Virus record (IMG/VR): IMGVR_UViG_3300031566_000298
Span: 1-27,439 of that record
Length of the DNA stretch: 27,439 bases
Strand: one strand, 5' to 3'
Source: a virus
The position numbers were made by a program, and so were the translations under genes. Position 1 is the stretch's first letter. Every line of letters starts with the position of its first letter. Shown here piece after piece: positions 6,852-21,202 of this stretch. The notes below the pieces were generated by a model. The model was not told the origin of the DNA, searched no databases, and saw nothing but the letters and a program-made list of their open reading frames with translations.

Positions 6852-6853
6852 GC

Positions 6854-7270
6854 ATGGGCAAGCGGCGGAAGCGGACACTACGGAGCATCTTCGCCGACAT
6901 CTGGTGGCAATGGCGGGCTTGGTGTATCCGGTCGGCCTACCGCAAGCTGGCAAGGCAGCCCGTACAGCCTGCACCAGAACCGGAGGCATCCATCGAGATT
7001 TATGAGGGCACAGACCTGTGGCATCGGCCTTATGACCTGCACATAGACGTGGGCACTTTTCGGAACCTGCTGCCCCTGCTGAGAGAGCAACGGAAAGAGC
7101 CCAACCTGGAGGTGGCAGACCTGGTGCAGGAGGCAATCACCGGGGCGATTGCGGGGGAGGCGAAGCGGCGCGGCCTGGTCTTCGCGGGGCGTTTTGAGGA
7201 GGGCGATGACGTCGTCGTGCAGTGGCGGGCGCCGGCTGAAGCGGCACGACTGCTGGCGGAGGAAGGCTGA
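6854..7270 (+). CDS. Hypothetical protein between portal and protease
   Basis: This encodes 138 residues and begins two bases after the portal stop. The N-terminus is strongly basic (MGKRRKRTLR) and rich in Trp, possibly an amphipathic or membrane-proximal helix, followed by a Pro-rich linker (38-46) and a more regular alpha/beta region to the end. I recognise no family. Its place in the head operon suggests a structural or assembly role, but nothing in the sequence proves it. Confidence 0.7.
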   Translation: MGKRRKRTLRSIFADIWWQWRAWCIRSAYRKLARQPVQPAPEPEASIEIYEGTDLWHRPYDLHIDVGTFRNLLPLLREQRKEPNLEVADLVQEAITGAIAGEAKRRGLVFAGRFEEGDDVVVQWRAPAEAARLLAEEG

Positions 7271-7282
7271 GGGAGGTGACAG

Positions 7283-7591
7283 ATGTCTGAGCAACTGAGT
7301 GAACCCGTTCCCGGTCGCGAATGGCAGGCTGAGTTTCCGTTCGGGCGCGGTAGTTGGCTACCTGTCGTCGGGATGACGTGCGACGAGGTGCTGCTGGCAG
7401 GCGATCATGTATTCCGATGGCATGGCACGGCTGACCTGAAGCCGTCCCCGAACGTGCGCCTGCGATACCGCGTGCCTGTGCGCGGACAGCCGATGGTATG
7501 GCGTGCGGAGGGGCCGGAACTGCTGCCGCTGCTTGCGCAGGACATGGGCCTGCCGGAACTGATGGAGACGATCAGGGCGGCGATGACGTAG
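7283..7591 (+). CDS. Hypothetical small head-region protein
   Basis: This encodes 102 residues behind a clear GGGAGGTGA ribosome binding site. It is acidic and mostly beta in character, with several paired aromatic and charged positions (GRGSWLPVVGMT, HVFRWHG) and a helical C-terminus. No known motif. The conserved-looking spacing to the portal-side gene and the protease gene suggests a small structural or assembly accessory protein, but I cannot name it. Confidence 0.7.
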   Translation: MSEQLSEPVPGREWQAEFPFGRGSWLPVVGMTCDEVLLAGDHVFRWHGTADLKPSPNVRLRYRVPVRGQPMVWRAEGPELLPLLAQDMGLPELMETIRAAMT

Positions 7592-7605
7592 GGCAGGAGG
7601 GTGTA

Positions 7606-8457
7606 ATGCCAGTGAAGCTAGGCGAAGAGGGAACCCTGGGCTGCACGGGCGACAAGCCGTGGCCACTCGTGAACGTGAATACGGGCAAGAAGGAGGCCTG
7701 CGCCGGCCCTGATCGGGCTACCGCGATACGTGCGGTGCAGGCACGGAACATGGCCCACGCTGGCCTGCTGAAGCGGACGTGGCAGCGGGTCTATCGGGCG
7801 GTCGTGGGAGAAGCTAGTTCCGCTGGAAAGTCTGATACTGGTACTGCTGCCAGCGTCACCGCTGGGGCTATCGATGCCTATGGGCTCCAGGCCAGCCTCG
7901 CTAGGCGCATTTCGGATATGCGCTCTCAGAAAGTAGACCGTGGCGTGCTGACATTAGACCTGCCCTGGGTTCGCCTGCACGGGGCCCGGATTTGGACAGA
8001 GCCACAGGAGCCACCTTGGGTTGAGCTTTCCCGCTCCGTGCGCATCGTCAAGCAGGACGAGGAGAAGCATGTCGCCCTGAGCGTGACGATGGAGCCGGCC
8101 GACCCCGCGGAGATCGCGAACTGGGTGCGGGACGGGAAGAAGGACCCGGCGCCGCGGGGCGTGGATAGTCAGGGGGACTGGACATTCGCCGAGGACATCG
8201 AGAGGGCGGCCTACGGTTTCATGGGCCGCTACCGCCAGGGCACGGGCATCAAGCTGGGGCATGAGGGCGACTTCATTCCGGCGGAGATCGTGGAGTCATA
8301 CCTGGCGCCGGTGGACTTCGACCTGGAGAACCAGCGGGTGGTCAAGGGCTCATGGCTGCAGGCGCTGCGGTTTCCCGACCGTGACCTGTGGGAGCTCGTG
8401 AAGCAGAACATGGGCGGCTGGAGCATCGGCGGGCGAGCAGAGAGGAGTGAGGAATGA
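7606..8457 (+). CDS. XkdF-like prohead protease (protease part only)
   Basis: The 283-residue protein carries the XkdF-type phage serine protease domain: VDSQGDWTFAEDIERAAYGF (186-205), LGHEGDF (217-223), VESYLAPVDF (229-238), VKGSW (246-250) and GWSIGGRAER (271-280). H219 and S273 are the likely catalytic pair. This class cleaves scaffold and capsid during head maturation. ATG 7606 follows GCAGGAGGG; the frame is open upstream to 7498 but overlaps another gene. The protein stops right after SIGGRAER, whereas related proteins commonly continue into an EISxVxxPAN segment. That segment is found at 20334 instead. An N-terminal module (1-110) with C13 and C32 is unassigned. Confidence 0.85.
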   Translation: MPVKLGEEGTLGCTGDKPWPLVNVNTGKKEACAGPDRATAIRAVQARNMAHAGLLKRTWQRVYRAVVGEASSAGKSDTGTAASVTAGAIDAYGLQASLARRISDMRSQKVDRGVLTLDLPWVRLHGARIWTEPQEPPWVELSRSVRIVKQDEEKHVALSVTMEPADPAEIANWVRDGKKDPAPRGVDSQGDWTFAEDIERAAYGFMGRYRQGTGIKLGHEGDFIPAEIVESYLAPVDFDLENQRVVKGSWLQALRFPDRDLWELVKQNMGGWSIGGRAERSEE

Positions 8458-8942
8458 GACTCAACGCCACGCACCAGATAGCCGAGCAGAAGATTCGCGC
8501 CTACCGGCGCACTGACCCGGCGGCCGCCGCCGCCTACAGCCTCCGGTTCTTCGCGGTCTGCCCCATGTGCGGAGAAACCATGCGTATGCCCCGGGAGAAT
8601 GTCGTCACGTCCATGCGCACCCTGCTCTGCCACGCTTGCCAGTGGTCGGCGCAGATCACGGAGGCGCAATGGCGCAGCGCGCCGGAGTACGGGCTGAAGC
8701 CGGTCTGCGAGTTGGCCTTGGCGGAGAAGGAGGCCAGACAGGCGGCCGAGAGGGCGGCTTTCGCACGACGTTCGCCTGAGAGAGGCGGTTCGTCGAGGTG
8801 GGGACCTGCGCCCAGGGAGGCGACGGAAGCGCCTGCCGAGGGCCCGCGTGGGGCGCATGAATACCCCGCAGGAGAGATGAGGCAGGGCCGAGCTGGGAGG
8901 AAAGGGGCGCGGGGTGGTAGCGGAGAGCCGCCGACAGACTAG
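8454..8942 (+). CDS. Zinc-ribbon hypothetical protein with disordered tail
   Basis: This encodes 162 residues. ATG overlaps the protease stop as ATGA, so the cargo begins in direct translational coupling to the head gene. A four-cysteine ribbon is clear: CPMC (C36, C39) and CHAC-type (C59, C62). Residues after about 100 are Arg-, Gly- and Pro-rich and probably disordered. This tail runs 29 bases into the next gene, so the exact functional end may be earlier. No function is assigned; a nucleic-acid or protein-binding adaptor is possible. Confidence 0.6.
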   Translation: MRLNATHQIAEQKIRAYRRTDPAAAAAYSLRFFAVCPMCGETMRMPRENVVTSMRTLLCHACQWSAQITEAQWRSAPEYGLKPVCELALAEKEARQAAERAAFARRSPERGGSSRWGPAPREATEAPAEGPRGAHEYPAGEMRQGRAGRKGARGGSGEPPTD

Positions 8943-9828
8943 GATCGGGCTGAACCTGCTGACGTGCAATCTGGCGGAGCAGCCGCTTCACCTGGTGGCG
9001 AGCAGGTACGCCGTCCAGAGCCTGCTGGAGAGCGACATCTGGGAATACGACTGGCGCCTCCAGATCGTGGACAACGGGAGCACCTGCCCGCAGACGGAAC
9101 GCTGGCTCGACGAGCTCCAGCAGACGGAGCTACGCATCGCCGTGGAGAAGGTCGGCCAGAACCTGGGCATCGCCAAGGGCCGCAACATCGGTTACCAGCT
9201 TCTCGCCCTGCATGAACCCGAGTTCGTCGTGGAACTGCATACCGACCATTTCTTCCCGCCGGCGCAGGACGGACACGGGCGGGATATAAGCTGGCTCGGG
9301 CCCATCGTCGAGCACATGCGACATCCGGCGAGCGCGCAGGTCGGGATTGTGGGGCCGGCGCTTCTGAGCGACGTAGTCAACTGGCGGGTGGGGAGTGCTG
9401 GCGTTTCGTACCATTGGCCTTATGAGCAGTTCCGCGATGCTGTGGCGAAGCGGTGTCTGGCCTTCCGCCACTCGCGCAAGGTCGTGCCGGGGCTGACGCA
9501 TCCCGCGGTCAAGCGGTGGTCCATGCTGGAGCAGATCGGCATACGCCAGGATGGGCTGCTGCATTGCTACGACCCGAACATGCCAGGCCGACAGAACTTC
9601 GAGGACACGGAGGAGGCCTTCCGGGCATGGAAGGCGGGGTGGCAGGTGCTGATCCACTTCGGGTCAGTGGTGTACCACCACTATCATTTCCAGCGACTGG
9701 AGTTGACGAGCCATCCCACCGACTACGACGCGAACAACTACTATTGCCAGGTGAAGCACGGGCCGGACTTCATCACATTCGCAACCACGACGCTGGGCGG
9801 CTGGCTGGACAGGGCTTACAGGAGGTGA
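8914..9828 (+). CDS. GT-A fold glycosyltransferase, family 2-like
   Basis: The 304-residue enzyme would move a sugar from a nucleotide donor to an acceptor. It shows the family 2-like signatures VDNGS (52-56), QNLGIAKGRNIG (82-93), and a metal/donor region VELHTDHFFPP (106-116) in which the usual DxD appears as TDH. A downstream FEDTEEAFRAWKAGW (229-243) is typical of the acceptor-side catalytic Asp/Glu helix, and VYHHYHF (253-259) supplies metal-binding His. There is no membrane segment, so it acts in the cytosol. Start is GTG behind GGGAGGAAAGG. It is the first of at least five glycosyltransferases in the cargo. Confidence 0.85.
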   Translation: MVAESRRQTRIGLNLLTCNLAEQPLHLVASRYAVQSLLESDIWEYDWRLQIVDNGSTCPQTERWLDELQQTELRIAVEKVGQNLGIAKGRNIGYQLLALHEPEFVVELHTDHFFPPAQDGHGRDISWLGPIVEHMRHPASAQVGIVGPALLSDVVNWRVGSAGVSYHWPYEQFRDAVAKRCLAFRHSRKVVPGLTHPAVKRWSMLEQIGIRQDGLLHCYDPNMPGRQNFEDTEEAFRAWKAGWQVLIHFGSVVYHHYHFQRLELTSHPTDYDANNYYCQVKHGPDFITFATTTLGGWLDRAYRR

Positions 9829-9831
9829 GCC

Positions 9832-10173
9832 GTGCGGACAGGTGAGTTTGCACACAGACTGACGAAGGCCGAAGTATCAAACCGGGACTGGGGTACGGTG
9901 GACAAGAGCCGCCTGCCCGCGGCCTGCTTCCTCTGGGTCGAGGACGCGGACAAGAAAACGACCTGGCATCTGCCCGTGTACGAAGGCGCGGGGGCAATCG
10001 GGGCGGACGGGATGTACGAACGCCGCGGGGCGCTGAATGCCAACGCGGTGCGGGCGGCGCGGGCTGCGGTCGGGGGAGCGCGGACGGGTCAGGCGATGCA
10101 GGTGCCTGCGTCGGTGCGTTCCACGCTGGAGCGGCTGATGCGCATGGTGGAGTCACAGGGCGAGGGCGAATGA
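9832..10173 (+). CDS. Phage capsid-protease-associated small domain (DUF6582-like)
   Basis: The 113-residue protein has the pattern DWGTVDKSRLP (19-29), ACFLWVED (31-38), TWHLPVYEG (44-52), then N..AVRAA and GGARTG near 70-90. I recall this as a small domain commonly fused to phage prohead protease or scaffold proteins. Here it stands alone within a glycosyltransferase cluster, so it may be a displaced part of the split protease. GTG start follows GGAGGTGA, three bases after the previous stop. The family name is from memory and should be treated as likely rather than certain. Confidence 0.65.
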   Translation: MRTGEFAHRLTKAEVSNRDWGTVDKSRLPAACFLWVEDADKKTTWHLPVYEGAGAIGADGMYERRGALNANAVRAARAAVGGARTGQAMQVPASVRSTLERLMRMVESQGEGE

Positions 10174-10364
10174 GGGCTGACCATCATCCGCTGAAGCAGG
10201 CAGGAGGGGCCCTGGGCTTGGCCTGCGGTCTCGCGGGAGGCTTGCTGTGCGGCAGGGCGTTGTGGGTAATCCCGGCGGCGTTGGTCGTATGCTGCGTTGT
10301 TCTACTGTACGTCTCAGCGGAGGCTGACGACCGGGAGGACGACGAGCGATGGAGGAATGATTGA
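10170..10364 (+). CDS. Small membrane protein, two hydrophobic segments
   Basis: This encodes 64 residues starting at an ATGA overlap. Two hydrophobic runs, about residues 11-28 (Gly/Ala/Leu-rich) and 32-49 (VIPAALVVCCVVLLYV), look like a helical hairpin in the membrane, followed by a charged tail (EADDREDDERWRND). It is the only evident membrane protein in the window. In a phage this could be a holin, a superinfection-exclusion protein, or a membrane anchor for the glycosyltransferases; nothing decides between these. Confidence 0.6.
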   Translation: MRADHHPLKQAGGALGLACGLAGGLLCGRALWVIPAALVVCCVVLLYVSAEADDREDDERWRND

Positions 10365-10375
10365 AGGAGGCGGCG

Positions 10376-10843
10376 GTGGACGAGACTGAGTGGCACGAAT
10401 GCACGTTGCTTGACTGCCTGGGCCGTTGGCAACTCGTAGACGTTCAACAAGGCGTCGGCAATCCGCCAACGGGGCCATCCGAAGCGAGTACGGACTCGAC
10501 ATGGATACTGTGGACTGTAATCGCAGATCCTCTCTATGGTTGGCGGCGGTATTTTCTCGCAATGGAAGACCCAGAGGACGGTTACAGGAGTTGCCTAGGG
10601 ACGCTATATACGAAGCACGAACAAGGCAAGCCCGGAGTCGGAGGGCTAGGCATATGGGGGCAGATGACGATTGCCCCATCTGGTGAGACGATCAGCTTTG
10701 CGGCAGGTCAGAGCCGCGCGGATTCGCCGCCACTATTGGTCGTGGGCACAGATACAGATGACCCTTGGTATCCCTGTTTCGTAGCGTCGTGGAATCCACC
10801 AAAGAAACAGACCCAGGAGCCGCCATGCGAATCCACGCCATAG
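10376..10843 (+). CDS. Hypothetical protein, lower-GC insert gene
   Basis: This encodes 155 residues. I take the GTG at 10376 because AAGGAGG (10364-10370) sits five bases upstream; an upstream TTG at 10361 is in frame but would bury that site. The protein is rich in Trp, Asp and Pro with beta-like stretches and matches nothing I know. Codon use looks less GC-biased at third positions than in the flanking glycosyltransferases, which suggests separate acquisition. Its end overlaps the next gene by 19 bases. Confidence 0.6.
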   Translation: MDETEWHECTLLDCLGRWQLVDVQQGVGNPPTGPSEASTDSTWILWTVIADPLYGWRRYFLAMEDPEDGYRSCLGTLYTKHEQGKPGVGGLGIWGQMTIAPSGETISFAAGQSRADSPPLLVVGTDTDDPWYPCFVASWNPPKKQTQEPPCESTP

Positions 10844-11754
10844 GCTTCGACTTCCTCAAACCCTACTGCGAGGAGTACGCCGAGTTCGTGGAGGACCCGG
10901 CCCAGGCCGACTTCGTGCTCTCCATGAACAACGCGGGCGGCCCCGGCTTCGCCGTCATCGGTATGGCGCGGGCCACCGCCGACAAGTACGGCAAGCCCTT
11001 CTGCTGGTGGACTATCGAAGACCCGAACTCGCACCTGGCATATCTGCCGCAGGCGAAGAAGGCCGACTACGTGTTCACGTCAGACAAGGCGCTTATCCCA
11101 CAGTATCGGCAGGCGGTGGGCCATGACCGCGTGTTCTGGCTACCACTTGCGGCGAGCGAGAGCATACACCGGCCGCTGCCCCTGGCAGACGACGCGGCGG
11201 ACTTCGTGTTCTCTGGCAACTGGTATCCCTATGGCGCGCGGAAGTGGGGCGACCAGACTGTCATCCTCCCGCTTGCCCGGGCTGGCTACAGCATGGCGAT
11301 CTTCTCCTATGAGGAGCCGCCATACCCTGAGCTGAAAGCCTTCTGGCGGGGCGGGACCTCCTGCTACACGACGGCAGAGCAGTACACACACGGCAAGGTG
11401 GTGCTGGGCGCCAACTGCCAGCGCAGCGGCATGGACGGGATAGCAAAGACGTACATGACGAGCATGCGGACGTTCGAGGCGCTGGCGTGTGGGAAGGCGT
11501 TCCTGGCGCCGCACTCTGACGCGTACGAGGCGCTGGGGTTTCACCAAGGCTACCATATGGGGGTTATCATAGACCCAGGCGCTGCTTTATGCTGGGGTGA
11601 GCACTCAATTCGCAATGATAAGTGCCTGTCAGACGCCGCAGTTGAGATGGCAGAGGCGGGCCGCGCCTTCGTCGTCGCCAACCACACCTACGGCCACCGA
11701 CTGCGGCGCATCGCGGCAGCCATCGTGGCGAAGGCTGAGCCGGAGGACTTGTGA
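10825..11754 (+). CDS. GT-B fold glycosyltransferase, CgeB / Glyco_trans_1_2-like
   Basis: The 309-residue product resembles CgeB-type group 1 glycosyltransferases: an N-terminal Rossmann half with WTIEDPNS (62-69) and YVFTSDKA (82-89), a linker FSGNWYPYGARK (129-140), and the C-terminal donor-binding stretch MRTFEALACGKAFLAP (214-229) followed by SDAYEALGF. This matches the 'R.FEALACG..L..P..D....LGF' pattern of the family. No signal peptide or membrane segment. I chose ATG 10825, behind CAGGAGC, although the frame is open to 10765. CgeB itself acts on the Bacillus spore surface; here a virion or cell-surface target is inferred. Confidence 0.82.
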   Translation: MRIHAIGFDFLKPYCEEYAEFVEDPAQADFVLSMNNAGGPGFAVIGMARATADKYGKPFCWWTIEDPNSHLAYLPQAKKADYVFTSDKALIPQYRQAVGHDRVFWLPLAASESIHRPLPLADDAADFVFSGNWYPYGARKWGDQTVILPLARAGYSMAIFSYEEPPYPELKAFWRGGTSCYTTAEQYTHGKVVLGANCQRSGMDGIAKTYMTSMRTFEALACGKAFLAPHSDAYEALGFHQGYHMGVIIDPGAALCWGEHSIRNDKCLSDAAVEMAEAGRAFVVANHTYGHRLRRIAAAIVAKAEPEDL

Positions 11755-12020
11755 TAACCTACTACGCCTGGGCGACGACGGCGGCGGGTATCTACCAGCA
11801 AGGCCCTATGAAAGGGCAGGGCTATCCTCGCCGGACGCTGTTGACGGCGGGCGGGCGCGTGCTGATCTGTCGGTTGTTGGCAGTGGCAGATGCGCTGAAA
11901 CCCGAGGGAACAGAAGTCGTGGCTCTGGCGCGCCTGCCGTTGCACTGGACTGACGCGCTGGAATGGCACGAGAACGTGAAGAAGATACTCATCGGCAGCG
12001 GTACGCTGGTGATTCAGTAG
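11751..12020 (+). CDS. Hypothetical protein
   Basis: This encodes 89 residues starting at GTG overlapped with the preceding stop (GTGA). There are two short hydrophobic strands (VLICRLLAVADAL, ILIGSGTLVI) and a LPLHWTDALEWHENVKK segment, with no known motif. It could be a compact alpha/beta protein. Only its coupling to the glycosyltransferase upstream supports a link to the cargo. Function is unknown. Confidence 0.55.
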   Translation: MITYYAWATTAAGIYQQGPMKGQGYPRRTLLTAGGRVLICRLLAVADALKPEGTEVVALARLPLHWTDALEWHENVKKILIGSGTLVIQ

Positions 12021-12030
12021 GTGGGGTACT

Positions 12031-12249
12031 GTGCGACATTGTGGCGATACTAAAGCATGTAGGCCATACGGGAAGTCTGGCCGAAAGGGTAGGGACAAAG
12101 ACATCCCGACGAAGAGCCCCCTGCCAAAGGCCAAGGCAGGGCTGTTATACACACCCGATCAGTGCGGCCTATACCGAATAACCGGGCCTGTTCGGTTTGT
12201 TGTTGCAAACGGAGCACCTAAGCCAGTGCGAAGAAGAAGATCGAGATGA
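12031..12249 (+). CDS. Doubtful small basic ORF
   Basis: A 72-codon frame opens at GTG with a weak GGTGGGG ribosome binding site. The product would be very basic (net-positive tails KSGRKGRDK and VRRRRSR), with a more protein-like middle (AGLLYTPDQCGLYRIT). Base composition is less GC-rich than in the surrounding genes, and the frame contains a perfect hairpin at 12119-12141. The stretch could equally be non-coding. I list it because otherwise about 250 bases would be empty. Confidence 0.35.
   Translation: MRHCGDTKACRPYGKSGRKGRDKDIPTKSPLPKAKAGLLYTPDQCGLYRITGPVRFVVANGAPKPVRRRRSR
12119..12141 (+). repeat. Inverted repeat / RNA hairpin
   Basis: CCCTGCC (12119-12125) and GGCAGGG (12135-12141) form a perfect seven-pair stem with a nine-base loop. 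It is followed by CTGTTATAC, not a true U-run, so it is at best a weak terminator or an RNA stability element. It lies in the weakest coding stretch of the cargo. Confidence 0.4.
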
Positions 12250-12268
12250 CACTAGGCGGAGGACTGAC

Positions 12269-12469
12269 ATGGAGATAGTCGTTGATCTGGTTGACCACGT
12301 AGCAACCATAGACGGCATGGAGACGCAGTGTCCTTGTAAACGCTGCAGTAGTAACCGGCGACGTAAAGTCCAAAGGAGACTCGCGAGTGTGAACCGGACG
12401 CTGGCGTGGATGAGGACTTGGCGACTAGAGGTATACCGGCCGGAGCAAACGGAGGCTGGAGATGGCTAA
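12269..12469 (+). CDS. Small basic Cys-motif protein
   Basis: This encodes 66 residues from an ATG behind AGGCGGAGGA. Residues 21-26 read CPCKRC, followed by a strongly basic helix (SSNRRRKVQRR), a plausible metal-binding and nucleic-acid-binding mini-protein. The three visible cysteines (21, 23, 26) are too few for a full zinc site unless a His or a partner chain contributes. The stop overlaps the next ATG. No family recognised. Confidence 0.55.
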   Translation: MEIVVDLVDHVATIDGMETQCPCKRCSSNRRRKVQRRLASVNRTLAWMRTWRLEVYRPEQTEAGDG

Positions 12470-12692
12470 AGCATTCATGTGCGACATCTGTGCCAAGGGC
12501 TTTCCTCATTCCCCGCTTACCTATCGCCGCAGGGTCACCATAGTTCGTTCCCTCACGGCGGAGGTCACCCTTGAACTCTGTCGCGATTGCGCTAATGAGT
12601 TGGTGACAGAAACCGGCGATGCCATGACGGGATTGGAGGACTGGAGGCGACCATGTTCCCTAACGAGCAGGCCGACACCGCACGAGTCGTGA
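12462..12692 (+). CDS. Small zinc-ribbon protein
   Basis: The 76-residue product has a clean four-cysteine ribbon: CDIC (C7, C10) and CRDC (C40, C43), separated by a beta-type segment (RRVTIVRSLTAEVTLEL). This is a common fold in small phage proteins and is usually linked to nucleic-acid or protein contacts. Start overlaps the previous stop. The last 40 bases overlap the following GT-D gene, a longer overlap than elsewhere, so its C-terminus may be poorly constrained. Confidence 0.6.
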   Translation: MAKAFMCDICAKGFPHSPLTYRRRVTIVRSLTAEVTLELCRDCANELVTETGDAMTGLEDWRRPCSLTSRPTPHES

Positions 12693-13414
12693 GGCGATTG
12701 GCCGAAGCCATCCTGCACAAGGAGCCATGCAGCCTGATCTCCATGGCAGACGGGGAGTCCGCGCTTCTCTGGGCGGCGAAGGGCTTCGGGCAGTTCCATT
12801 ACCTGAGCGCGTGGGGGTTCTCCGCGGCAGACCGCCTGGGCGTGGCAGAGCAGTTGGCGGCGGCCATCCCGAAGTGCGACATCGTGTGTCTTCCACGTTC
12901 CGGCCCGCTGGCGAAGCGCCCGGACATGGGGCCGAAGCTGATGGAGGCGCTGAACCTATGGGGCATCCAGCCCAAGCCCGAGGCGCTGATCGGGGACTCC
13001 CTGATCTGCTTCTATCTGATGTTCGACGGCTGGCTCTGGTCGCTTATGGAGAACAGGAAGGTGCTGGTCGTCACCGGCGAGCAGGAGGCGGTGGTGGCTG
13101 CCCTGAATGGACGGCAGCCGCCTACTGGGCTCGCGGGCTTCGCCGGGCCGGGGTTCTGGCGACATGCGGACGCGACTGGGATATTCCTGACTGATGGGGT
13201 CGCCGGATCCGCCAAGGCGCTTGAGGAGGCGGCGAACTTGCCATGGAAGCCCGACCTATGCCTGCTCGGGGCCGGATCACGGGCGGCGCACCTTGCCGTG
13301 GAGTTGTCACAGATGCATCAGATGCCGGTCATTGAGCTGGGGTGCGTGTTCTCATGGTTCCACACCGCCAGCGAGCCAGCGGAGATGTTCAGATGGTACC
13401 AGGAGGGGGGCTAA
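12653..13414 (+). CDS. GT-D fold glycosyltransferase-like protein
   Basis: The 253-residue protein looks like a GT-D domain enzyme: an N-terminal helix, then CSLISMADGESALLW (26-40), which fits the 'R/M-x-DGE' donor/metal motif of GT-D proteins with D33-E35, and a Rossmann-like C-terminus with PDLCLLGAGSRAAHLA (about 203-218) and VIELG. In the founding GT-D enzymes the domain extends O-glycans on serine-rich adhesins in Gram-positive bacteria. A role in adding a sugar to a protein-linked glycan would fit. ATG 12653 follows GGAGGCGA. Confidence 0.68.
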   Translation: MFPNEQADTARVVRRLAEAILHKEPCSLISMADGESALLWAAKGFGQFHYLSAWGFSAADRLGVAEQLAAAIPKCDIVCLPRSGPLAKRPDMGPKLMEALNLWGIQPKPEALIGDSLICFYLMFDGWLWSLMENRKVLVVTGEQEAVVAALNGRQPPTGLAGFAGPGFWRHADATGIFLTDGVAGSAKALEEAANLPWKPDLCLLGAGSRAAHLAVELSQMHQMPVIELGCVFSWFHTASEPAEMFRWYQEGG

Positions 13415-13415
13415 C

Positions 13416-13481
13416 GTGAGTGATCCTGGAGGTTTGATTCTGCCATTCCTGCGAGGAGAGGACAGATGCGAATCGTGGTAA
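13416..13481 (+). CDS. Possible 21-residue micro-ORF
   Basis: GTG at 13416 sits nine bases after AGGAGG (13401-13406), an excellent ribosome binding site with no other obvious client, and gives 21 residues (MSDPGG, then LILPFLRGED) before TAA. It overlaps the next gene by 16 bases. It may be a leader peptide that couples translation across the gap, or chance. It is too short to judge from composition. Confidence 0.25.
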   Translation: MSDPGGLILPFLRGEDRCESW

Positions 13482-13669
13482 GGCCGAGGCTCTTTGGTCT
13501 CTTGGGTTATACCGCAACCTGCTATAGCAACCAGGGCATTAGCCAGGCGAAGATCAGTGCAGCAGAAGCAGACCGCCTCTACTGGGACCCGCGCTTTCGT
13601 GGCGGTGCGTGGACGATCCCCTTGGGTGTTCCCAGGGATTTCGATCCATTTGAGGGAGCAGAGGAATGA
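13466..13669 (+). CDS. Hypothetical small protein
   Basis: This encodes 67 residues from an ATG behind GAGGAGAGG, overlapping the next gene by ATGA. It shows alternating aromatic and small residues (FGLLGYTATCYSNQ, RFRGGAWTIPLG) but no motif I know. Base use is less GC-biased than in the flanking glycosyltransferases. It fits the pattern of short unknown genes placed between the enzymes. Confidence 0.55.
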   Translation: MRIVVRPRLFGLLGYTATCYSNQGISQAKISAAEADRLYWDPRFRGGAWTIPLGVPRDFDPFEGAEE

Positions 13670-14682
13670 GAGTCGTCTACACATACGGCCTCCTTGCCGG
13701 GGGTGGCTGTGAGCGGCGCACCGGGCAGTTGATGCGCTGGCTGCTCGACCGGGGCGATGACGCGTGGCTGCTCGGAACCGGATGGGCCGAAGCCGGCCAG
13801 GCGATGATGCTGGAGCAGTGCCAAGTCCCTGCGGATCGCATCATCATCATGCCAGGCGACCAGTTGTCAACCGGCTCATATGAGGAGTTCCTGAGCGAGA
13901 ACATAGAGCGCCTGGAGGCAGACCTGATCGACGTACAATGGACTTCCTGCCTGCCTTCTCGTTGGACGCGGCCATCCGTGTTCACGATGCATGGTATCAC
14001 GCAGCCGGTTCCAGCCCATGCCCCATTCAGCAAGATCATCTGTATCGAGAACCTGCCGAGTGGCCATCCGGCCTACCATGGCGAGTCAAAGACGAAGATA
14101 CAAGTTATCTGGAACTGGGTTGATCTGCAGCAGTTCCCATTTCAGCGCGACCTCGGCGAGGGGGCCTGCTACGTCGGACGCCGGTTCAAGGCGGCGAACG
14201 CGGTGAAGGTCTGCGCGCTCGACCCTGGCGTCACGATAGACGGCTACGGCACGGACTTCGACCTATCGGTGCCGCAGTTCCCGCCGAACCTCCGGTGGCT
14301 CGGTTACGGCAAGCCCGAGGAGTTTATCTATGACTATCGTGTCGTCTTCGGCTGCGCTCTTGCCGCGGTGGAGGGCCTGGCGGCTGGCCGTCTAGTGATC
14401 GCCGGAGGCTGGCAGGGGTATGCGGGCCGGCAGACATACGGACACCTCGTGCGGCCTCACCTGCTTGAGCGCATGAGCGGAGACCAGTTCACCGGGCAGT
14501 CGCAGAGTGACGCCGTGGAACCGACGGCCGAGGAGGTGTACCGCGAGTTCCAGTTGGCCATGGAGGACGACATGACGGAGCAGCGGCTGCAGAACCGGGC
14601 ATGGGTAGAGCAGCACCACCATCCCGACAAGCAGATGGAGAAGGTGCGGCGGGTCTACGAGGAGGCAATAGGTTGTGAGTGA
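13666..14682 (+). CDS. GT-B fold glycosyltransferase, family 4-like
   Basis: The 338-residue product is a GT-B enzyme. The N-terminal half has the glycine-rich acceptor-side turn GLLAGGGCERRTGQL (8-22), QWTSCLPS (91-98) and VFTMHGITQP (105-114); a linker IWNWVDLQQF (148-157) matches the 'N.VDl..F' hinge of family 4 enzymes. The C-terminal half ends in CALAAVEGLAAGRLVIAGG (230-248), the position of the E..ACG..vv donor motif. It is cytosolic, with no membrane segment. ATG overlaps the preceding stop (ATGA), and its end overlaps the nitroreductase gene. Confidence 0.82.
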   Translation: MRVVYTYGLLAGGGCERRTGQLMRWLLDRGDDAWLLGTGWAEAGQAMMLEQCQVPADRIIIMPGDQLSTGSYEEFLSENIERLEADLIDVQWTSCLPSRWTRPSVFTMHGITQPVPAHAPFSKIICIENLPSGHPAYHGESKTKIQVIWNWVDLQQFPFQRDLGEGACYVGRRFKAANAVKVCALDPGVTIDGYGTDFDLSVPQFPPNLRWLGYGKPEEFIYDYRVVFGCALAAVEGLAAGRLVIAGGWQGYAGRQTYGHLVRPHLLERMSGDQFTGQSQSDAVEPTAEEVYREFQLAMEDDMTEQRLQNRAWVEQHHHPDKQMEKVRRVYEEAIGCE

Positions 14683-15265
14683 CCCATACCAGGCCCGGTA
14701 CCTGGAACATCTGCAGCGGAAGGCGGCCATGATCGCGAGTGACTCGGTCCCAACAGAGACATCGCTCACGGACCAGAGGAGAAGCATTCGCGTCTTTCAG
14801 GATAGGCCGGTCCCCGAGCTGCTATTGCATGAGATATTCGAGGCGGTGCGGGCCGCGCCGCAGTCCTGCAACCGGCAGGCGCTGACGCTCTCGGTCGTGC
14901 CAGGCTCCGAGGTCGGCGGCTGGCTGCTCGGCGGCAGGGGATGGGCAGAGAAGGCCCCTGTCATTGTGCTGGTGTTCGCGGACCTGGCGGCCTACAAGTC
15001 GCCGTATGCGGCCACACACATGCCTTGGGTGGACGCTGGGGTCGCGCTCGGGACGATAGTCTACGCCGCCTTCGCCTGCGGGCTGGGGAGCTGCATTATC
15101 AGCTTCCGCGTAGACCCGGAAGCCGAAGTAGGGTTCCGCGCCTTGTTCAACCCACACGGGCGGCTGTTCTGCGGGGCGGTGGCCCTGGGCTACAGCGGGA
15201 TCACGCCGGACATGCCCGAGAAGAAACCCCTGTCGGAATTAGTGGAGCGTTGGGATGGTAGTTGA
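14675..15265 (+). CDS. Nitroreductase-family flavoprotein
   Basis: The 196-residue protein shows the nitroreductase plan: RRSIRVFQDRPVP (35-47) with the FMN-phosphate arginines, AAPQSCNRQ (60-68), a long helix WVDAGVALGTIVYAAFACGL (118-137) with GSC, and ALGYSG (170-175) followed by KKPLSELV (183-190). Enzymes of this fold bind FMN as dimers and reduce nitro, quinone, enone or iodotyrosine-type substrates, or perform other redox chemistry. Its place between a GT-4-like and a GT-D-like gene is unusual. It may alter a glycan or nucleotide-sugar group, but the substrate is unknown. GTG start is coupled by GTGA overlap. Confidence 0.82.
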   Translation: MSDPYQARYLEHLQRKAAMIASDSVPTETSLTDQRRSIRVFQDRPVPELLLHEIFEAVRAAPQSCNRQALTLSVVPGSEVGGWLLGGRGWAEKAPVIVLVFADLAAYKSPYAATHMPWVDAGVALGTIVYAAFACGLGSCIISFRVDPEAEVGFRALFNPHGRLFCGAVALGYSGITPDMPEKKPLSELVERWDGS

Positions 15266-16022
15266 CCTGTCCGTGCGGCATTTCATCACGGTCGAGGACC
15301 TGCTTGAGGACATCATCCATGCCCTCCGGGAGGGGCGGCCCTTCAGCTTGACGCGTTGGGCGGATTCGTCGAACTGGATTATATCCCACGGCCGAGACCC
15401 TACCCCGGAGCTCATCTACCGGGAGGGGCGCATGACGCAGGCTTGCTTTGAGGAGTACCGCCTGGCATTCCTGCGGGGCGTGAGCGAGTGCGACGTACTC
15501 GGGGTATTCGCCAACGACCTGTGGACAAAGCAGATGATGGCGCAGGCTGAGCTGGACATATCCGGGAAGCGACTCGTCTTCGCCTGGTGCAACAAGCACA
15601 TTCAGTCGCGGCGCGAGTGGGCTGACGAAGTGCTTGGGGGGGAATGGCGGACAGTGCTGGTCGGCAACCGGATTCCTGTCTATCGGCCTTGGCTGGAGGA
15701 GCGGTTCCCCAGGCTGCAAGTTGTCCATGCCAGCACGGCACAGGACTGGCCGGAGGTCGCCGTCTGCATGAAGGCGATTTGGGACTTGAGGCCCCAACTC
15801 GTGATTGCCTGCGCCGGATGGTACACGTCCTGCCTCGTCGGGGCAGCGAGGCGGGCTGGCGCGGTCGGACTATCCATGGGACACATGCCCGACTACCACA
15901 TGGGCGGGCACTTCCCGCCCAACACCGAGTTCCCCCGGGGCATTGAGGGCAATGAGGCGCACTGTAAGAAGTACATTCATAACACCGACTGGATACCGCA
16001 GAGCCGGGAGATCGACGTATGA
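15255..16022 (+). CDS. GT-D-like protein with altered DGE motif
   Basis: The 255-residue protein resembles the GT-D-type product at 12653 in layout: helix, then FSLTRWADSSNWII (30-43) at the place of the R-x-x-DGE motif, and a Rossmann-like C-terminus PQLVIACAGWYTSCLVGAAR (about 177-196) with VGLSMGHMPDYHMGG. The motif here is ADSS: the Asp is kept, but Gly and Glu are lost. It may use a different donor geometry, be inactive, or act as a partner of the intact paralogue. The C-terminal HMPDYHMGGHF is strikingly His-rich. ATG overlaps the nitroreductase stop. Confidence 0.62.
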   Translation: MVVDLSVRHFITVEDLLEDIIHALREGRPFSLTRWADSSNWIISHGRDPTPELIYREGRMTQACFEEYRLAFLRGVSECDVLGVFANDLWTKQMMAQAELDISGKRLVFAWCNKHIQSRREWADEVLGGEWRTVLVGNRIPVYRPWLEERFPRLQVVHASTAQDWPEVAVCMKAIWDLRPQLVIACAGWYTSCLVGAARRAGAVGLSMGHMPDYHMGGHFPPNTEFPRGIEGNEAHCKKYIHNTDWIPQSREIDV

Positions 16023-16032
16023 GGAGGCGACG

Positions 16033-16581
16033 ATGGGACTGAAACTCAACCTGGGGTGCGGGACGGATCTGCGCCAGGGGTGGACCAACGCTGATCGCAT
16101 CGCTCTGGCTGGCGTGGATATTGTCTGCGACCTGGACGAACAGTGGCCGTGGGAGGACGACTCGGTAGAGCAGGTGTGGGCATCGGACGTATTCGAGCAC
16201 CTGCGGGACAAAATGCACACGCTGGAGGAACTATGGCGCGTCTGCCGGCATGGGGCGATCTGTGAGATTGAGACTCCAAACGGACAGTGGAACCTGTGCC
16301 AGTGGGCGGACCCCACGCACCGCACTTCCTGGGAGCCGGAGAACCTGGAGTTCCTGCGGCCGGGCCACTTCTGGTACTTCATCACGCCAGCGAAGTTCGT
16401 GACGCTGGAGATGAGGGCCGAGGCAGGGCGCATCTACTGGAAGCTGGCGGCCTACAAGGAGTGGGACGAGGAACTTGAGAAGCTGCACAACCACGAGGCG
16501 TATCGGGCATGGCAGGAGACGCGAAGCCGCACGGCAATGGCGGCGTCTGAGGAAAAGCTGAGAAGGGAACCGGAGCGATGA
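16033..16581 (+). CDS. SAM-dependent methyltransferase (class I)
   Basis: The 182-residue enzyme has LNLGCGTDLRQGWTNAD (5-21), a class I SAM-binding motif, and DLDEQWPWEDDSVEQVWASD (33-52) followed by VFEHL, the pattern of small 'LNLGCG..' methyltransferases seen in polysaccharide clusters. Their targets are usually sugars. It likely caps or decorates the glycan made by the neighbouring transferases. ATG 16033 follows GAGGAGG; the frame is open upstream but would overlap the GT-D-like gene. The C-terminus has an acidic and basic helix that runs to the overlap with the next gene. Confidence 0.8.
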   Translation: MGLKLNLGCGTDLRQGWTNADRIALAGVDIVCDLDEQWPWEDDSVEQVWASDVFEHLRDKMHTLEELWRVCRHGAICEIETPNGQWNLCQWADPTHRTSWEPENLEFLRPGHFWYFITPAKFVTLEMRAEAGRIYWKLAAYKEWDEELEKLHNHEAYRAWQETRSRTAMAASEEKLRREPER

Positions 16582-17492
16582 TTCAATACCAGGACCTCGC
16601 CGACCGAATGAATGCGGCGGCCGCGCAGATGACGGAGCCGCAGAAGGAGGCCTTCCGCCGCAGCGTGACCGCGCGCAACCTGGCGCCGCCGGAGAACGCG
16701 GAGCTCTGGCTGGCGATCCATGACGGCATCGGCGGCGATGCCTATGACGGCGCGCTCTCCGTACCAGAAATGCGGGCGGCGATGGAGGACCTGCCACTGG
16801 ACTCCTGGGCGACGCTCAACAACGTGATCTTCGTGTTGCACCGGGGCAACGTGTTCGACGAGCAATGGGAGGCTATCCCTGGAGGCGGCATCGAGTACAA
16901 GTTCGCGCCGCGCTACCAGATCTTCCTGGAGCAGTTCGAACAGGAGGCTGCGCGGATCCGGGAGGCGACTGGTGAGAACCGAGTGTCGGTTCTGGACGTA
17001 GGCTGTTGGCAGGGCACATTGATTTGCACGCTACTCCAGCGCGGTTACCGCGTCGCAGGAACAGATATTTGCGCGGAGACAGGGCCGGTTGTAGAGGAGC
17101 GCGTCGCGATGTTGCGGCCGGAGCATGCGGCTCGTTTCATTAGGTTTGATCGCGAAGGGGATCGCCCGGTTATCTCAGGCTGGGCTCACCGGATACTCCG
17201 GTCGCTACCGCCATTCGATATAGTGACTTGTCAGGAGACGCTGGAGCACGTCCCGACGGCCGTCCTACAGCAGACCTGCGACGCCATCCTGCATAGAGCA
17301 ATACATGCCGTCCTGATTACCGTGCCCGGTTGGGATGACGGGTGGCCCCTGCATCTCCGGGTGTTCACCATCGCCGACTTCGAGCGGCTGTTCCACGCCG
17401 ACAAGAACGAGATGATAGTGCTGCAGGAGCCGGGCGGCGGGGTCTATACGACGGTGCTTGTAAGGCCACAACATGGAGGAACAAATGACTGA
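16578..17492 (+). CDS. SAM-dependent methyltransferase with N-terminal extension
   Basis: This encodes 304 residues starting at an ATGA overlap. The first 125 residues are an unassigned helical extension; the catalytic part begins at VSVLDVGCWQGTL (136-148), a class I SAM site, followed by VAGTDICAE (159-167) and FDIVTCQETLEHVP (213-226), typical of Methyltransf_11/23-type enzymes. The end (TIADFERLF) is also common in these. With the smaller methyltransferase before it, two O-methylations of a glycan or acceptor are possible. No membrane or export signal. Confidence 0.82.
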   Translation: MIQYQDLADRMNAAAAQMTEPQKEAFRRSVTARNLAPPENAELWLAIHDGIGGDAYDGALSVPEMRAAMEDLPLDSWATLNNVIFVLHRGNVFDEQWEAIPGGGIEYKFAPRYQIFLEQFEQEAARIREATGENRVSVLDVGCWQGTLICTLLQRGYRVAGTDICAETGPVVEERVAMLRPEHAARFIRFDREGDRPVISGWAHRILRSLPPFDIVTCQETLEHVPTAVLQQTCDAILHRAIHAVLITVPGWDDGWPLHLRVFTIADFERLFHADKNEMIVLQEPGGGVYTTVLVRPQHGGTND

Positions 17493-17925
17493 CTCTGAAG
17501 TAGCTGCTGATATGGATAGACGTTTCGTACTCTTGTTCTCAAACTACGGCTACGCGCCTTTCGTCGCCATGGGTGAACTCCTCGGGTATGGGCCTCCTGG
17601 GCAAGTGCGAGTACGGCTTCTCATGAGTTGGAACCTCAAGGGCCTCATCGGTGTTCCTGCTCTCAGGGAGGATGGCAGTCACCGGAGCATGTACTTTGAG
17701 TCGTACAATCGCGAGACTTGGGAAGACGCGGAGAAGCCAACCGTCCTCGTCTGCATGGAACCGGGCCTTGGGGGTCCACGCCAGGTATTAGTCAAGGATG
17801 AAGCACTGGCCAAGGATATCATCTACGAAGCCATGACTGGGATTCAGCTTTCGCTTGATGGAAGCATGACCCGTGCGGGGTTGTCCGATGAACAGAAAGC
17901 GGCCGTACTGAGAGTGACGACGTGA
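17485..17925 (+). CDS. Hypothetical protein, lower-GC insert gene
   Basis: This encodes 146 residues. I prefer ATG 17485 over 17473 because GGAGGA (17475-17480) falls between them at the right distance. The protein has a compact alpha/beta look (RVRLLMSWNLKGLIGVPAL, TVLVCMEPGLGG), with no motif recognised. Third positions are visibly less GC-rich than in the flanking enzymes, as in the genes at 10376 and 13466, which suggests independent acquisition. Its stop overlaps the next GTG. Confidence 0.6.
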   Translation: MTDSEVAADMDRRFVLLFSNYGYAPFVAMGELLGYGPPGQVRVRLLMSWNLKGLIGVPALREDGSHRSMYFESYNRETWEDAEKPTVLVCMEPGLGGPRQVLVKDEALAKDIIYEAMTGIQLSLDGSMTRAGLSDEQKAAVLRVTT

Positions 17926-18902
17926 AGATCATCCTCCTGGGCGGCGTGCTCTCGTTCAGCGGCGTCGAGCAGCACATGCTGACCTTGGCCCTGGCCCTTC
18001 GCCGGCTGGGGCATGACGCGCAGATCATGGGCCTATGCAACGCGGGCGGGTTCGACCAGATCAGGGGCTGGACTGACCCGGAGGGCCAGGTGCCTGTCTA
18101 CTGGGCAGAAGGGTGGCCGCTGAATGCCGCGGGGGCGCGGCAGATGCTGCTTGACCTGGCGCCGGACATCGTGAACGTGCAACTGCCCGTCTCGCCGGCG
18201 GCGATCCCGGAGCCGGCTGACTTCGCAGTCGTGGGCACGGCGCACGGCATGTCTAGCCTGCAGGGACGTATCCCGGACTGTCGCTCTATCATTGCCCTGG
18301 ACAAGCGCATCCTGCCGGAGCTACGGTCCTTCGCGGGGCAGAGCGGTATCCCCGTGCAGGCCGTCTGCAAATGTGTGGATCTGAAGCGGTTCAAGTTCCG
18401 GGACGACGCGGCGAAGCGCAATGGCGCCGCCTATTTCGGGCGCGTGGACCAGACCAAGGTCGGCGTGTTGCCCGGCTGGGTTGGCTGCGGGACGATGGAC
18501 GTATACTGCGACGCGCCTGGGGCCGACGTGTTCCGCGTGAACTTTCCGCTACCGCAGTTCGCTATCAAGGGGCCGGCGCGGGCTGAGGATGTGCTCTATC
18601 AGTACCGGATTGTGGCAGCCTCGGGAACCGGCGCGATAGAGGCGATGGCCTGCGGGGCCCTGGTGCTGGTGGGGCCGCTGGACGCGGGGAGGCTGGCAGG
18701 CTGGCGGGACAGGGGCTATGCACCGGGTTATTTCTATGACGAGGGCGGGGCGCGTGAGGTGCCACGGGACGCGGACAGGCTGAGGGACGACAGGCTAGCG
18801 ACCGAGACGGCGCGTCTATGCCGGAAGTGGGTAGAACGTTGGCACGACGCGGACACGGTGGCAAAGGAGTTCGTGCAGGTTTATGAGGAGGCGGCGAACT
18901 AG
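17922..18902 (+). CDS. GT-B fold glycosyltransferase, family 4-like
   Basis: This 326-residue enzyme is a GT-B transferase: GGVLSFSGVEQHMLTLALAL (7-26) is the N-terminal glycine-rich loop and helix, VGTAHGMSS (104-112) is the first-domain motif, CVDLKRF (151-157) is the hinge, YFGRVDQTKV (171-180) opens the second domain, and GTGAIEAMACGALVLVG (235-251) is the donor-binding E..ACG motif. It is related in plan to the 13666 product but not a close copy. It is cytosolic. GTG start overlaps the preceding stop, and the gene ends three bases before the next one. Confidence 0.85.
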   Translation: MKIILLGGVLSFSGVEQHMLTLALALRRLGHDAQIMGLCNAGGFDQIRGWTDPEGQVPVYWAEGWPLNAAGARQMLLDLAPDIVNVQLPVSPAAIPEPADFAVVGTAHGMSSLQGRIPDCRSIIALDKRILPELRSFAGQSGIPVQAVCKCVDLKRFKFRDDAAKRNGAAYFGRVDQTKVGVLPGWVGCGTMDVYCDAPGADVFRVNFPLPQFAIKGPARAEDVLYQYRIVAASGTGAIEAMACGALVLVGPLDAGRLAGWRDRGYAPGYFYDEGGAREVPRDADRLRDDRLATETARLCRKWVERWHDADTVAKEFVQVYEEAAN

Positions 18903-18904
18903 CG

Positions 18905-19651
18905 ATGAAGATCGTAGCCGGCGGCATCCTGCGTGATCGCTGGACGGTCGGGGCCTACCTGCAAGCTATGGCCGTGCTGGACACGACGGGGCATGAGGTG
19001 ACCTGGGCGTGGGTGCTGGACGACACGCCTGCGGAGGTCGTCCGCGCCTACGTCAGCGATGCCGTCACAGTCGAGGTGAGCAACCTGCCGGGGCCTATTT
19101 ACCATCGCCAGGGCGGTATGCCGCAGGAGCGCAATCGCCTGCATGCCCGCCTGGCATGTCTGCGGAATCTCCTGCGGGACGTCGCCCTACAGGCCGGGGC
19201 CGATGCGCTGTTCTCCGTGGACTCGGACATTTTGCCGCCGTCAGAGACATTGCTGCGCCTGATTGACTGTGCCCACCCGTGGGTGGCGGCCCTGGTGCGG
19301 AACAGTGCTATCAGCGAGGCCTGGAACGTCTACCACCTGCTGCATCCCGAGCAGGGCGGCCTCATAAATCACTTCCTGCCGACGGGGACGAACCCGAAGG
19401 GCGAGACATGGCCGGGGCCGGAAGGCTGCGGTCACGACCCGCGGAACGCTGCGAAGACGCCAGACCTGTGCGCTGGCGCGGTCTGCCTCTACCATAGGGA
19501 GGTGCTGGAGAAGGCGCGGTGGAAGGCGACCGCCCATGGTGCCGGGGAGGACACGGGCTTTGGCCTGGAGGCCTTCGCCGCAGGATACCGGGCCTGGTAC
19601 CTGCCCATCGTGTGCAGGCATCTGACGATTGACGGGGTAGGGGATGCGTGA
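18905..19651 (+). CDS. GT-A fold glycosyltransferase with DSD motif
   Basis: The 248-residue protein has a GT-A layout: an N-terminal nucleotide-binding strand, an R..RN.L region (76-90), the metal site FSVDSDILPP (103-112) with D106 and D108 as the DxD pair, and GEDTGFGLEAFAAGY (214-228) providing the acceptor-side acidic residues, then VCRHLTIDG (236-244) with a likely metal-binding His. This resembles family 2 and Anp1-like transferases. It is the last enzyme of the cargo. ATG lies behind GGAGGCGG; the end overlaps the next gene. Confidence 0.83.
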   Translation: MKIVAGGILRDRWTVGAYLQAMAVLDTTGHEVTWAWVLDDTPAEVVRAYVSDAVTVEVSNLPGPIYHRQGGMPQERNRLHARLACLRNLLRDVALQAGADALFSVDSDILPPSETLLRLIDCAHPWVAALVRNSAISEAWNVYHLLHPEQGGLINHFLPTGTNPKGETWPGPEGCGHDPRNAAKTPDLCAGAVCLYHREVLEKARWKATAHGAGEDTGFGLEAFAAGYRAWYLPIVCRHLTIDGVGDA

Positions 19652-19901
19652 CAGCCTGCGAGCAAAAGACGTTCTCACCTTCCAGGAAGCCCCGCGGAAG
19701 GCAGGCGATCCGCCGCCAATCCCTCTGCGCTGCAAGTGTGGCCGGGTCGTTGGTGAGTTGAGCGGAGTCATAGGCAGCGGCTACTATGAGATCAAGCACA
19801 AGTGCAAAGGTTGCGGCGGTTGGGCCGTCTTCACCGTGCGGGATGGGGCGATCTTCTGGACGCGGACCGAACCGGCGCAGCGGCGACAGTGGCCTGGTTA
19901 G
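19644..19901 (+). CDS. Com-like zinc-ribbon protein
   Basis: This encodes 85 residues. Four cysteines in CKC (C30, C32) and CKGC (C54, C57), with an intervening YYEIKHKC stretch, give a zinc ribbon that resembles the Com translational regulator of phage Mu, in which a similar ribbon binds mRNA of the adjacent modification gene. A link is only suggestive, but it is worth noting here because the gene is followed directly by a large structured RNA region. Its start overlaps the glycosyltransferase by eight bases. It is the last cargo gene. Confidence 0.55.
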   Translation: MRDSLRAKDVLTFQEAPRKAGDPPPIPLRCKCGRVVGELSGVIGSGYYEIKHKCKGCGGWAVFTVRDGAIFWTRTEPAQRRQWPG

Positions 19902-19926: not shown

Positions 19927-19954
19927 TTGACATTCCTGCCAGACGTGGTATAAA
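19927..19954 (+). promoter_or_regulatory. Near-consensus sigma70-type promoter before the capsid block
   Basis: A perfect TTGACA (19927-19932) and a TATAAA -10 box (19949-19954) are separated by 16 bases; transcription would start near 19961, where the structured RNA begins. Together with the promoter at 3040-3068 it divides the late genes into a packaging-plus-cargo unit and a capsid-plus-tail unit. Confidence 0.78.
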
Positions 19955-19960
19955 TATGTT

Positions 19961-20082
19961 TGGATTGCGGCGGGCATATAGGATAGGTAGAGCTTGGGGA
20001 TGCCCGCCCCAGGCGGCTGAGCGATACGCCGGCCTGCGAAAGCTCGAATAGGGCTCGACCTTCGGCCTGTCCCCGCAATCCA
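19961..20082 (+). ncRNA. Multibranched structured RNA, unknown family
   Basis: The stretch is closed by a ten-pair helix, TGGATTGCGG (19961-19970) with CCGCAATCCA (20073-20082). Inside it, CGGGCAT (19971-19977) pairs with ATGCCCG (20000-20006) directly next to the closing helix. CAGGC (20010-20014) can pair with GCCTG at 20032-20036 or at 20065-20069, and GGC/GCC (20015-20017, 20028-20030) extends the first option. The result is a compact junction RNA of about 122 bases that starts at the predicted transcription start. I recognise no known riboswitch or small RNA. No convincing coding frame crosses it on the + strand. Confidence 0.6.
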
Positions 20083-20265
20083 GAGACAACTGCCGTTCAT
20101 GCCTTGCGAGGCGGCATGGGTAGTAAGCGGTTCTACGGGAGCCGTGCGTACGGGGCCGCTCACGCTCTGCGAGGCGGCCCCAAACTAAAAACTGAATGAC
20201 GTCGCTCTCCAATAGGCCTTATGGCCGGGGAGTGCGGGCCATCTAGGGCCTCCAGTAGGGACCAC
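20083..20265 (+). ncRNA. Leader RNA with hairpins and a short direct repeat
   Basis: This part of the leader contains CATGCC (20098-20103) with GGCATG (20113-20118), and GGGGCCGC (20152-20159) with GCGGCCCC (20174-20181), an eight-pair stem. The 11-base sequence TGCGAGGCGGC occurs twice (20105-20115 and 20168-20178), each time running from the loop into the 3' arm of one of these hairpins, so the two may be duplicated binding elements. A short A-rich break follows at 20182-20192. No gene is supported here. Confidence 0.5.
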
Positions 20266-20307
20266 AAGCGGTCCAGCAACGAAAGTTGCCGGGCCGCTTT
20301 TCTGTTT
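20266..20307 (+). terminator. Intrinsic terminator with GAAA loop, probably an attenuator
   Basis: Arms 20266-20280 and 20285-20299 form a fourteen-pair stem with one A-C mismatch (20275/20290) and one G-U pair, capped by a GAAA tetraloop and followed by TTTTCTGTTT. This is textbook factor-independent terminator geometry. It lies downstream of the promoter at 19927 and only 27 bases before the scaffold gene start, so it would stop that promoter's own transcript unless overridden. GGACC (20259-20263) can pair with GGTCC (20270-20274) in the 5' arm, a mutually exclusive anti-terminator. Confidence 0.75.
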
Positions 20308-20333
20308 GGCCCGGCGCAAGGAGGCGATTGCTC

Positions 20334-21200: not shown

Positions 21201-21202
21201 CC

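Follow-up and report, generated by a model that had tools for sequence, protein, structure and literature searches.

A putative glycan-building gene cassette in the head module of a small family of uncultured phages

What would a phage make with a long run of sugar-transfer genes placed between its prohead protease and its scaffold? This question is raised by the IMG/VR virus record IMGVR_UViG_3300031566_000298, which was analyzed over its whole length of 27,439 bp (the window); the record lacks end repeats and is probably a fragment. Its genes lie on one strand throughout, in the order terminase, portal, XkdF-type protease, cassette, scaffold, a 142-amino-acid protein, major capsid protein (MCP), minor head protein, and tail. 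The cassette (8454-19901) is real, conserved, and functional-looking, and we estimate a probability of roughly 60% that it serves to assemble a methylated glycan step by step in the cytosol, with a virion protein as the acceptor.

Cassette content, site, and conservation

Twenty-one same-strand open reading frames (ORFs) leave hardly any of the region uncovered; almost every one overlaps the next or lies no more than 11 bp from it, with a single gap of 51 bp. A codon-usage caller retains 17 of the 21, which makes the figure of about 22 coupled genes in the initial annotation a fair one. Its enzyme tally agrees with our family searches: five glycosyltransferases (GTs) of GT-A or GT-B type, two GT-D-like proteins, two S-adenosylmethionine (SAM) methyltransferases, and one nitroreductase-family protein (Table 1). 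Genes for nucleotide-sugar synthesis, flippases, or polymerases were not seen in the window cassette, and PF01370 (epimerase) and PF00483 (NTP-transferase) were absent from 10 related records searched with working controls. Hydropathy and family scans found neither multi-transmembrane (multi-TM) enzymes nor export genes in the cassette, and the enzymes all look soluble. The earlier statement that synthesis, flippase, and polymerase genes are lacking is borne out by these scans. Host donors are probably used.

Scans of viral contigs recovered the same arrangement in a small family of uncultured phages comprising five lineages, the window included. L002 and L003 are kin of the window; the second lineage consists of G004 (L005 and L013), L004, and L006, the third of G008, L010, G011, L007, and L008, the fourth of G010 and L031, and the fifth of L045, which comes from another metagenome. 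When the related phages were checked for the cassette, the core order GT2, GT-B, GT-D, GT4, methyltransferase, and GT-A was found at the same site in the window lineage and three further ones, and the fifth has a reduced set (GT2, GT-B, methyltransferase 2 [MT2], another methyltransferase, and GT-A). The fuller common order runs from a Zn protein through GT2, a small TM protein, GT-B, GT-D, GT4, methyltransferase, GT-A, and a small Zn protein to the scaffold, with some small genes missing from some lineages and with G010 stopping ahead of GT-A. In four of the five lineages a small TM protein separates GT2 from GT-B (equivalents in G004, G008, G010, and G011). G011 carries a compact, complete cassette (1440-8488) with the protease on one side and the scaffold on the other, and L039 has a second GT4-type gene (GT4b), GT-A, scaffold, and capsid in common with the window. 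All contigs that have a related terminase and extend far enough past the protease show the GT2 gene following it. Between lineages the GT-D is more conserved than the MCP (65%–83% versus 38%–50% identity), and catalytic motifs are invariant across orthologues of the cassette enzymes. A tblastn search of GT2, GT-B, GT-D, and GT-A against 50,697 phage records gave no match. When genome contigs were searched for a host or prophage, GT-B had no match, and all that the terminase gave was a match of 27% in a Myxococcales metagenome-assembled genome.

Individual enzymes are assigned with differing firmness. The predicted model of the GT-B at 10825 matches GT4-type GT-B structures (PDB E 5e-9), a structure search that does not tell protein, DNA, and small-molecule acceptors apart. 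The core GT-D-like protein at 12653 matches PF22882, a family related to GT-D (DUF1792), and its DxE within 'ADGE' is retained in orthologues; NF040628 scored below the cut-off and no PDB match was obtained by sequence. The GT4-type protein at 13666, weak by sequence, aligns with that at 17922. The fold of the GT-A at 18905 matches GT-A-type enzymes, best COLGALT1 (E 2e-5), in a low-confidence predicted model (pLDDT 57). This fold match hinted at a tie to the GT25 enzymes of mycobacteriophages Che8 and Firecracker, and profile comparison gave no support for it.

The protease-scaffold junction is an accessory-gene site, occupied here by the glycan cassette. In MT835491, a distant relative without the cassette, the 178 bp from protease to scaffold are empty. 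Accessory genes of other kinds, a number of them nuclease-like, fill the junction in the Arthrobacter phages Salgado (where there are five small genes), Kovu (nuclease genes), and Ottawa.

Within the family the cassette varies in content and sequence. The nitroreductase, the second GT-D, MT2, and GT4b are accessory in the window cassette, and remnants of two of these four persist in G004. G004 also carries an extra GT-D and a gene of the PF04989 rhamnosyl O-methyltransferase family (E 8.6e-45), which points to sugar methylation. The GT2 gene is duplicated in G010, and the L039 cassette includes an ATP-grasp gene. Between the window and L003 or L002, structural DNA is mostly 83%–100% identical, whereas identity is 70%–77% in the second half of GT-B and 83%–94% across GT4b and GT-A. 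Mean protein identity in three close pairs is 86.7% for the cassette against 95.0% for structural proteins (Mann-Whitney p 0.014), a gap that is indicative only because genes are not independent. In close pairs dN/dS is 0.09–0.30 for cassette enzymes, well under 1 for all of them, and the enzymes are therefore under purifying selection.

A probable virion glycan and its alternatives

We propose that soluble transferases, during infection, would draw on host nucleotide sugars and extend an oligosaccharide sugar by sugar on a structural protein of the phage. The MCP, the 142-amino-acid decoration or head-fibre-like protein, and the tail tube are candidate acceptors. One to three SAM methyltransferases would then add methyl groups to hydroxyls of the sugars. 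In this scheme the acceptor, the sugars, the enzyme that primes the chain, and the sequence of reactions are all inferred. Loss, gain, or replacement of single genes may give related phages different glycans, and the likely benefit would be a particle surface that is shielded or altered.

By analogy with the cluster O mycobacteriophages and with the recurrent placement of GTs in unrelated phages, a virion protein is most likely the target and the best supported one. A paper on cluster O phages describes their enzymes as modifying capsid and tail tube (PMC11600133). In Firecracker (Corndog group, cluster O), gp33-gp36 similarly form one block of an O-methyltransferase and several GTs in the head module, but with four enzymes as opposed to six to ten here, and 5' rather than 3' of the protease. 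Two further papers describe the Che8 capsid as glycosylated (PMC12363180, PMC11256854). Che8 (cluster F) encodes three soluble GTs, one of them fused to a methyltransferase domain (gp108-gp110: a GT2-methyltransferase fusion, GT2, and GT25), but at the right end of its genome rather than in the head module, with GT25/GT2 types that show no similarity to the cassette. As in both systems, soluble GTs are clustered here with a sugar-type methyltransferase, and as in the Corndog group the cluster lies within the head module, in five lineages. Comparison of the Firecracker and Che8 GTs with those of the cassette gave no blastp and no significant hhalign match, only a weak methyltransferase link. 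Because no similarity between the GTs is detectable, the cassette represents the same kind of system as that of Che8 and Corndog and not the same family. GTs also lie among structural genes in two unrelated metagenomic phages (TerL, four GTs, and portal in L065; MCP, GT-B, GT-A, and tape measure in L046).

More distant systems offer partial parallels. The streptococcal serine-rich repeat protein Fap1 is O-glycosylated step by step by a set of GTs, among them GT-D and GT-A types (PMC5063993). This process is cytosolic and uses GT-D and GT-A types, as proposed for the cassette, but the GT-D-like proteins of the cassette match the related family PF22882, and neither a Gtf1/2-type priming pair nor a secretion system was recognized. 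The capsid glycan of chlorovirus PBCV-1, which differs in being a eukaryotic virus with multidomain GT proteins, is methylated. Virus-encoded GTs build atypical glycans on the PBCV-1 major capsid protein (PMC7826918).

Several points weigh against a glycan on the virion. The initial annotation had proposed such a glycan, and a soluble multi-step pathway with methylation lies in the head module of five lineages; the glycan itself is predicted from genes, and its acceptor is a candidate by analogy. No sequence or profile similarity is detectable between the cassette GTs and those of mycobacteriophages, the cassette repeatedly includes a small TM protein, and all records are fragments. Position alone is no proof of a virion role, because the junctions of Salgado, Kovu, and Ottawa hold other accessory genes. 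Expression with late structural genes, also proposed initially, finds partial support: the scaffold and MCP genes have their own promoter-like element 3' of the cassette, and for this reason co-expression of cassette and capsid is an inference only.

It is possible that the enzymes instead modify an envelope glycan of the host (lipopolysaccharide, capsule, or wall polymer), blocking superinfection or changing the surface type. Bacterial loci for surface glycans often contain rhamnosyl O-methyltransferases and enzymes of GT2, GT4, and GT-D-like type, which favors this explanation, as does the recurrent small membrane protein. We nevertheless consider it unlikely, since the window cassette, by family scan and hydropathy, lacks a flippase, a polymerase, a polyprenyl-phosphate transferase, and any multi-TM GT, and its neighbors are virion genes and not those of a lysogeny region (which no contig reaches). 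A Gtr-type seroconversion cluster would have a membrane flippase and a multi-TM glucosyltransferase, and no such protein occurs in the cassette; serotype-conversion genes were not seen in the contigs, every one of which is a fragment.

Glycosylation and methylation of modified phage DNA bases as protection against restriction appears quite unlikely. GTs of T4 and its relatives have such a role, T4 BGT is one of the many GT-B enzymes that the model of the GT-B at 10825 matches, and genes for a DNA methyltransferase and a PAPS-reductase-like protein lie upstream in G010 and L010. On the other hand, the thymidylate-synthase/hydroxymethylase family (PF00303 type) was absent from the 10 fragmentary related records under working controls, and PF12851 (Tet/JBP) was not found in related records by a search without a positive control. 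To our knowledge, six to ten sugar or methyl steps and a place between protease and scaffold would be unusual for DNA modification, which weighs against this role. We regard as very unlikely that a small molecule, RNA, or host protein is made or modified for counter-defence, with the position in an accessory hotspot due to chance. The varied contents of the junction in MT835491, Salgado, and Kovu would suit this idea, and the nitroreductase-family protein and the ATP-grasp enzyme of L039 are atypical of simple glycosylation. These two genes are accessory only, however, and the stable core consists of transferases and a methyltransferase in fixed order, as an oligosaccharide pathway would have.

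Transcription and neighboring features

The cassette may share a transcript that starts upstream and also covers terminase, portal, and protease, and the capsid genes appear, from motifs ahead of the scaffold, to have their own transcription start. Elements similar to the sigma70-like one in the cassette-scaffold gap occur in L002 and G004, and G011 and G008 have weaker versions; a general promoter scan, the rule of which excludes TATAAA, found no excess over chance. A strongly folding non-coding stretch lies 3' of this element (19957-20250; closing stem GGATTGCGG..CCGCAATCC), and the 379-nt fold has a z of -4.4 against shuffles. The folding stretch is not in Rfam and its main part was not found at the same site in relatives; the window holds no convincing member of known RNA families.

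We considered whether the cassette had split one protease gene. This was rejected, as MT835491 has the protease and a PAN-containing scaffold as separate neighbors without any cassette; in those relatives that were examined, the EISVV..PAN segment accompanies the scaffold gene. In G004 (about 21160-21305; about 7232-7377 on the minus strand of L013), an in-frame TGA falls within the EISLVDR..AAN segment ahead of the scaffold, which may begin at an internal ATG; the TGA could also be an assembly error. Genes annotated as 'RNA ligase' in L011 (11212-12333, Salgado gp18) and L035 (11185-12318, Kovu gp20) have an XkdF-protease-like C-terminal part (about 110 amino acids, 28%–30% identity), and this annotation seems incomplete. 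The window protease contains 50 amino acids that are similar to a portion of the tape-measure protein of G011 (L028 15795-18551; 54%, E 2.6e-9). In L045, a PF23140 (phage GP4 fiber I gp80-like) protein lies between protease and GT genes (1894-2313).

The Kovu gene at the place of the 142-amino-acid protein is annotated as 'head fiber' and is weakly similar to the G004 orthologue (E 0.007). A conserved LSPTPTG in the 142-amino-acid protein was weighed as an O-glycosylation site and is not claimed. A homing-endonuclease-like gene (phrog_4645) lies 3' of the putative tail-tube gene (26596-27342), where identity to L002 falls. In G010, an intein-like insert with a LAGLIDADG match interrupts a DNA N4/N6 methylase gene (L026 892-3372).

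Table 1. Features of the window discussed in the text
Feature	Position	Strand	Evidence and remarks
Terminase small subunit	3197-3904	+	phrog_6299 E 1.3e-9
Terminase large subunit	3879-5330	+	phrog_2 E 7e-32
Portal protein	5355-6851	+	phrog_113 E 1.7e-58
XkdF-type prohead protease, left boundary of cassette	7606-8457	+	PF14550 E 5.5e-17; start from codon caller
Putative Zn-ribbon protein, cassette start	8454-8942	+	Paired CxxC motifs; G008 and G011 orthologues about 44%, blastp E 4e-24
GT2-family (GT-A) glycosyltransferase, core	8914-9828	+	PF00535 E 1.9e-6; orthologues 38-98% in all lineages covering the gene
113-amino-acid protein, function unassigned	9832-10173	+	Identical in L003
Small membrane protein	10170-10364	+	Hydropathy maximum 2.7
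GT-B glycosyltransferase (Glyco_trans_1_2 + DUF3880), core	10825-11754	+	PF13524 E 1.2e-10
89-amino-acid protein, function unassigned	11751-12020	+	Distant relative opens G011 and L007 cassettes (blastp E 2e-6, 5e-6)
GT-D-like glycosyltransferase, core, most conserved enzyme	12653-13414	+	PF22882 E 2.6e-17
GT4-type GT-B glycosyltransferase, core	13666-14682	+	PF13439 E 5.6e-4, below curated cut-off; orthologues 37-47%
Nitroreductase-family flavoprotein, accessory	14675-15265	+	PF00881 E 5e-18; 35-amino-acid remnant in G004
Second GT-D-like protein, accessory	15255-16022	+	PF22882 E 3.8e-14; 25% relative in G004
SAM methyltransferase 2 (MT2)	16033-16581	+	PF08241 E 2.6e-6; also in G004 (59%) and L045 (45%)
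SAM methyltransferase 1, core in four lineages	16578-17492	+	PF13489 E 4e-7; GCWQGTL motif invariant
Second GT4-type glycosyltransferase (GT4b), accessory	17922-18902	+	PF13439 E 1.6e-8; in L002 and L039; 30-amino-acid remnant in G004
GT-A glycosyltransferase with DxD, core, last enzyme ahead of scaffold	18905-19651	+	Invariant VDSDI; sequence alone weak, E 0.015
Small putative Zn-binding protein, cassette end	19644-19901	+	Weak orthologues in L002, G004, and G008
Sigma70-like promoter, cassette-scaffold gap	19927-19954	+	TTGACA-16-TATAAA, 11/12 matches
Hairpin leader 5' of scaffold	20254-20316	+	75-96% identical to L002, G004, G008, and G011
Scaffold protein with N-terminal EISVVEHPAN segment, right boundary	20334-21200	+	Orthologues in lineages reaching the scaffold
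142-amino-acid putative head decoration or head-fibre-like protein, candidate acceptor	21203-21631	+	Position ahead of MCP
Major capsid protein (MCP)	21646-22689	+	phrog_1005 E 1.6e-68
Minor head protein	from 23561

Novelty and biological meaning

A glycan cassette inside the capsid operon had been presented as new. This novelty of place is not supported, because the head module of Firecracker (Corndogvirus) already holds an O-methyltransferase and three GTs, in the order portal, O-methyltransferase, three GTs, protease, and capsid. Since the placement of GTs among structural genes recurs in the Corndog group, L065, and L046, the kind of arrangement is already known. What is new in the cassette is its larger size, its unrelated enzyme families, and its diversity when compared with known virion glycosylation sets.

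A more tentative extension, which we hold to be possible but doubtful, is that a phage-encoded pathway of up to ten enzymes, present throughout the lineages, decorates the head surface with a long methylated glycan that may contain rhamnose, the type of which is switched between near-identical phages of the same habitat by exchange of single transferase and methyltransferase genes. If true, this pathway would parallel, in prokaryotic viruses, the capsid glycosylation of chloroviruses, with variation resembling that of serotypes.

Most of what is known about virion glycosylation by phages comes from mycobacteriophages, in which interest lay in how it affects immune recognition. That an environmental family carries, at a comparable genomic place, a cassette that is larger, variable, and unrelated suggests that phages have repeatedly acquired pathways for virion glycans, and the cassette provides a concrete set of enzymes with which to ask what role particle glycans play in nature.

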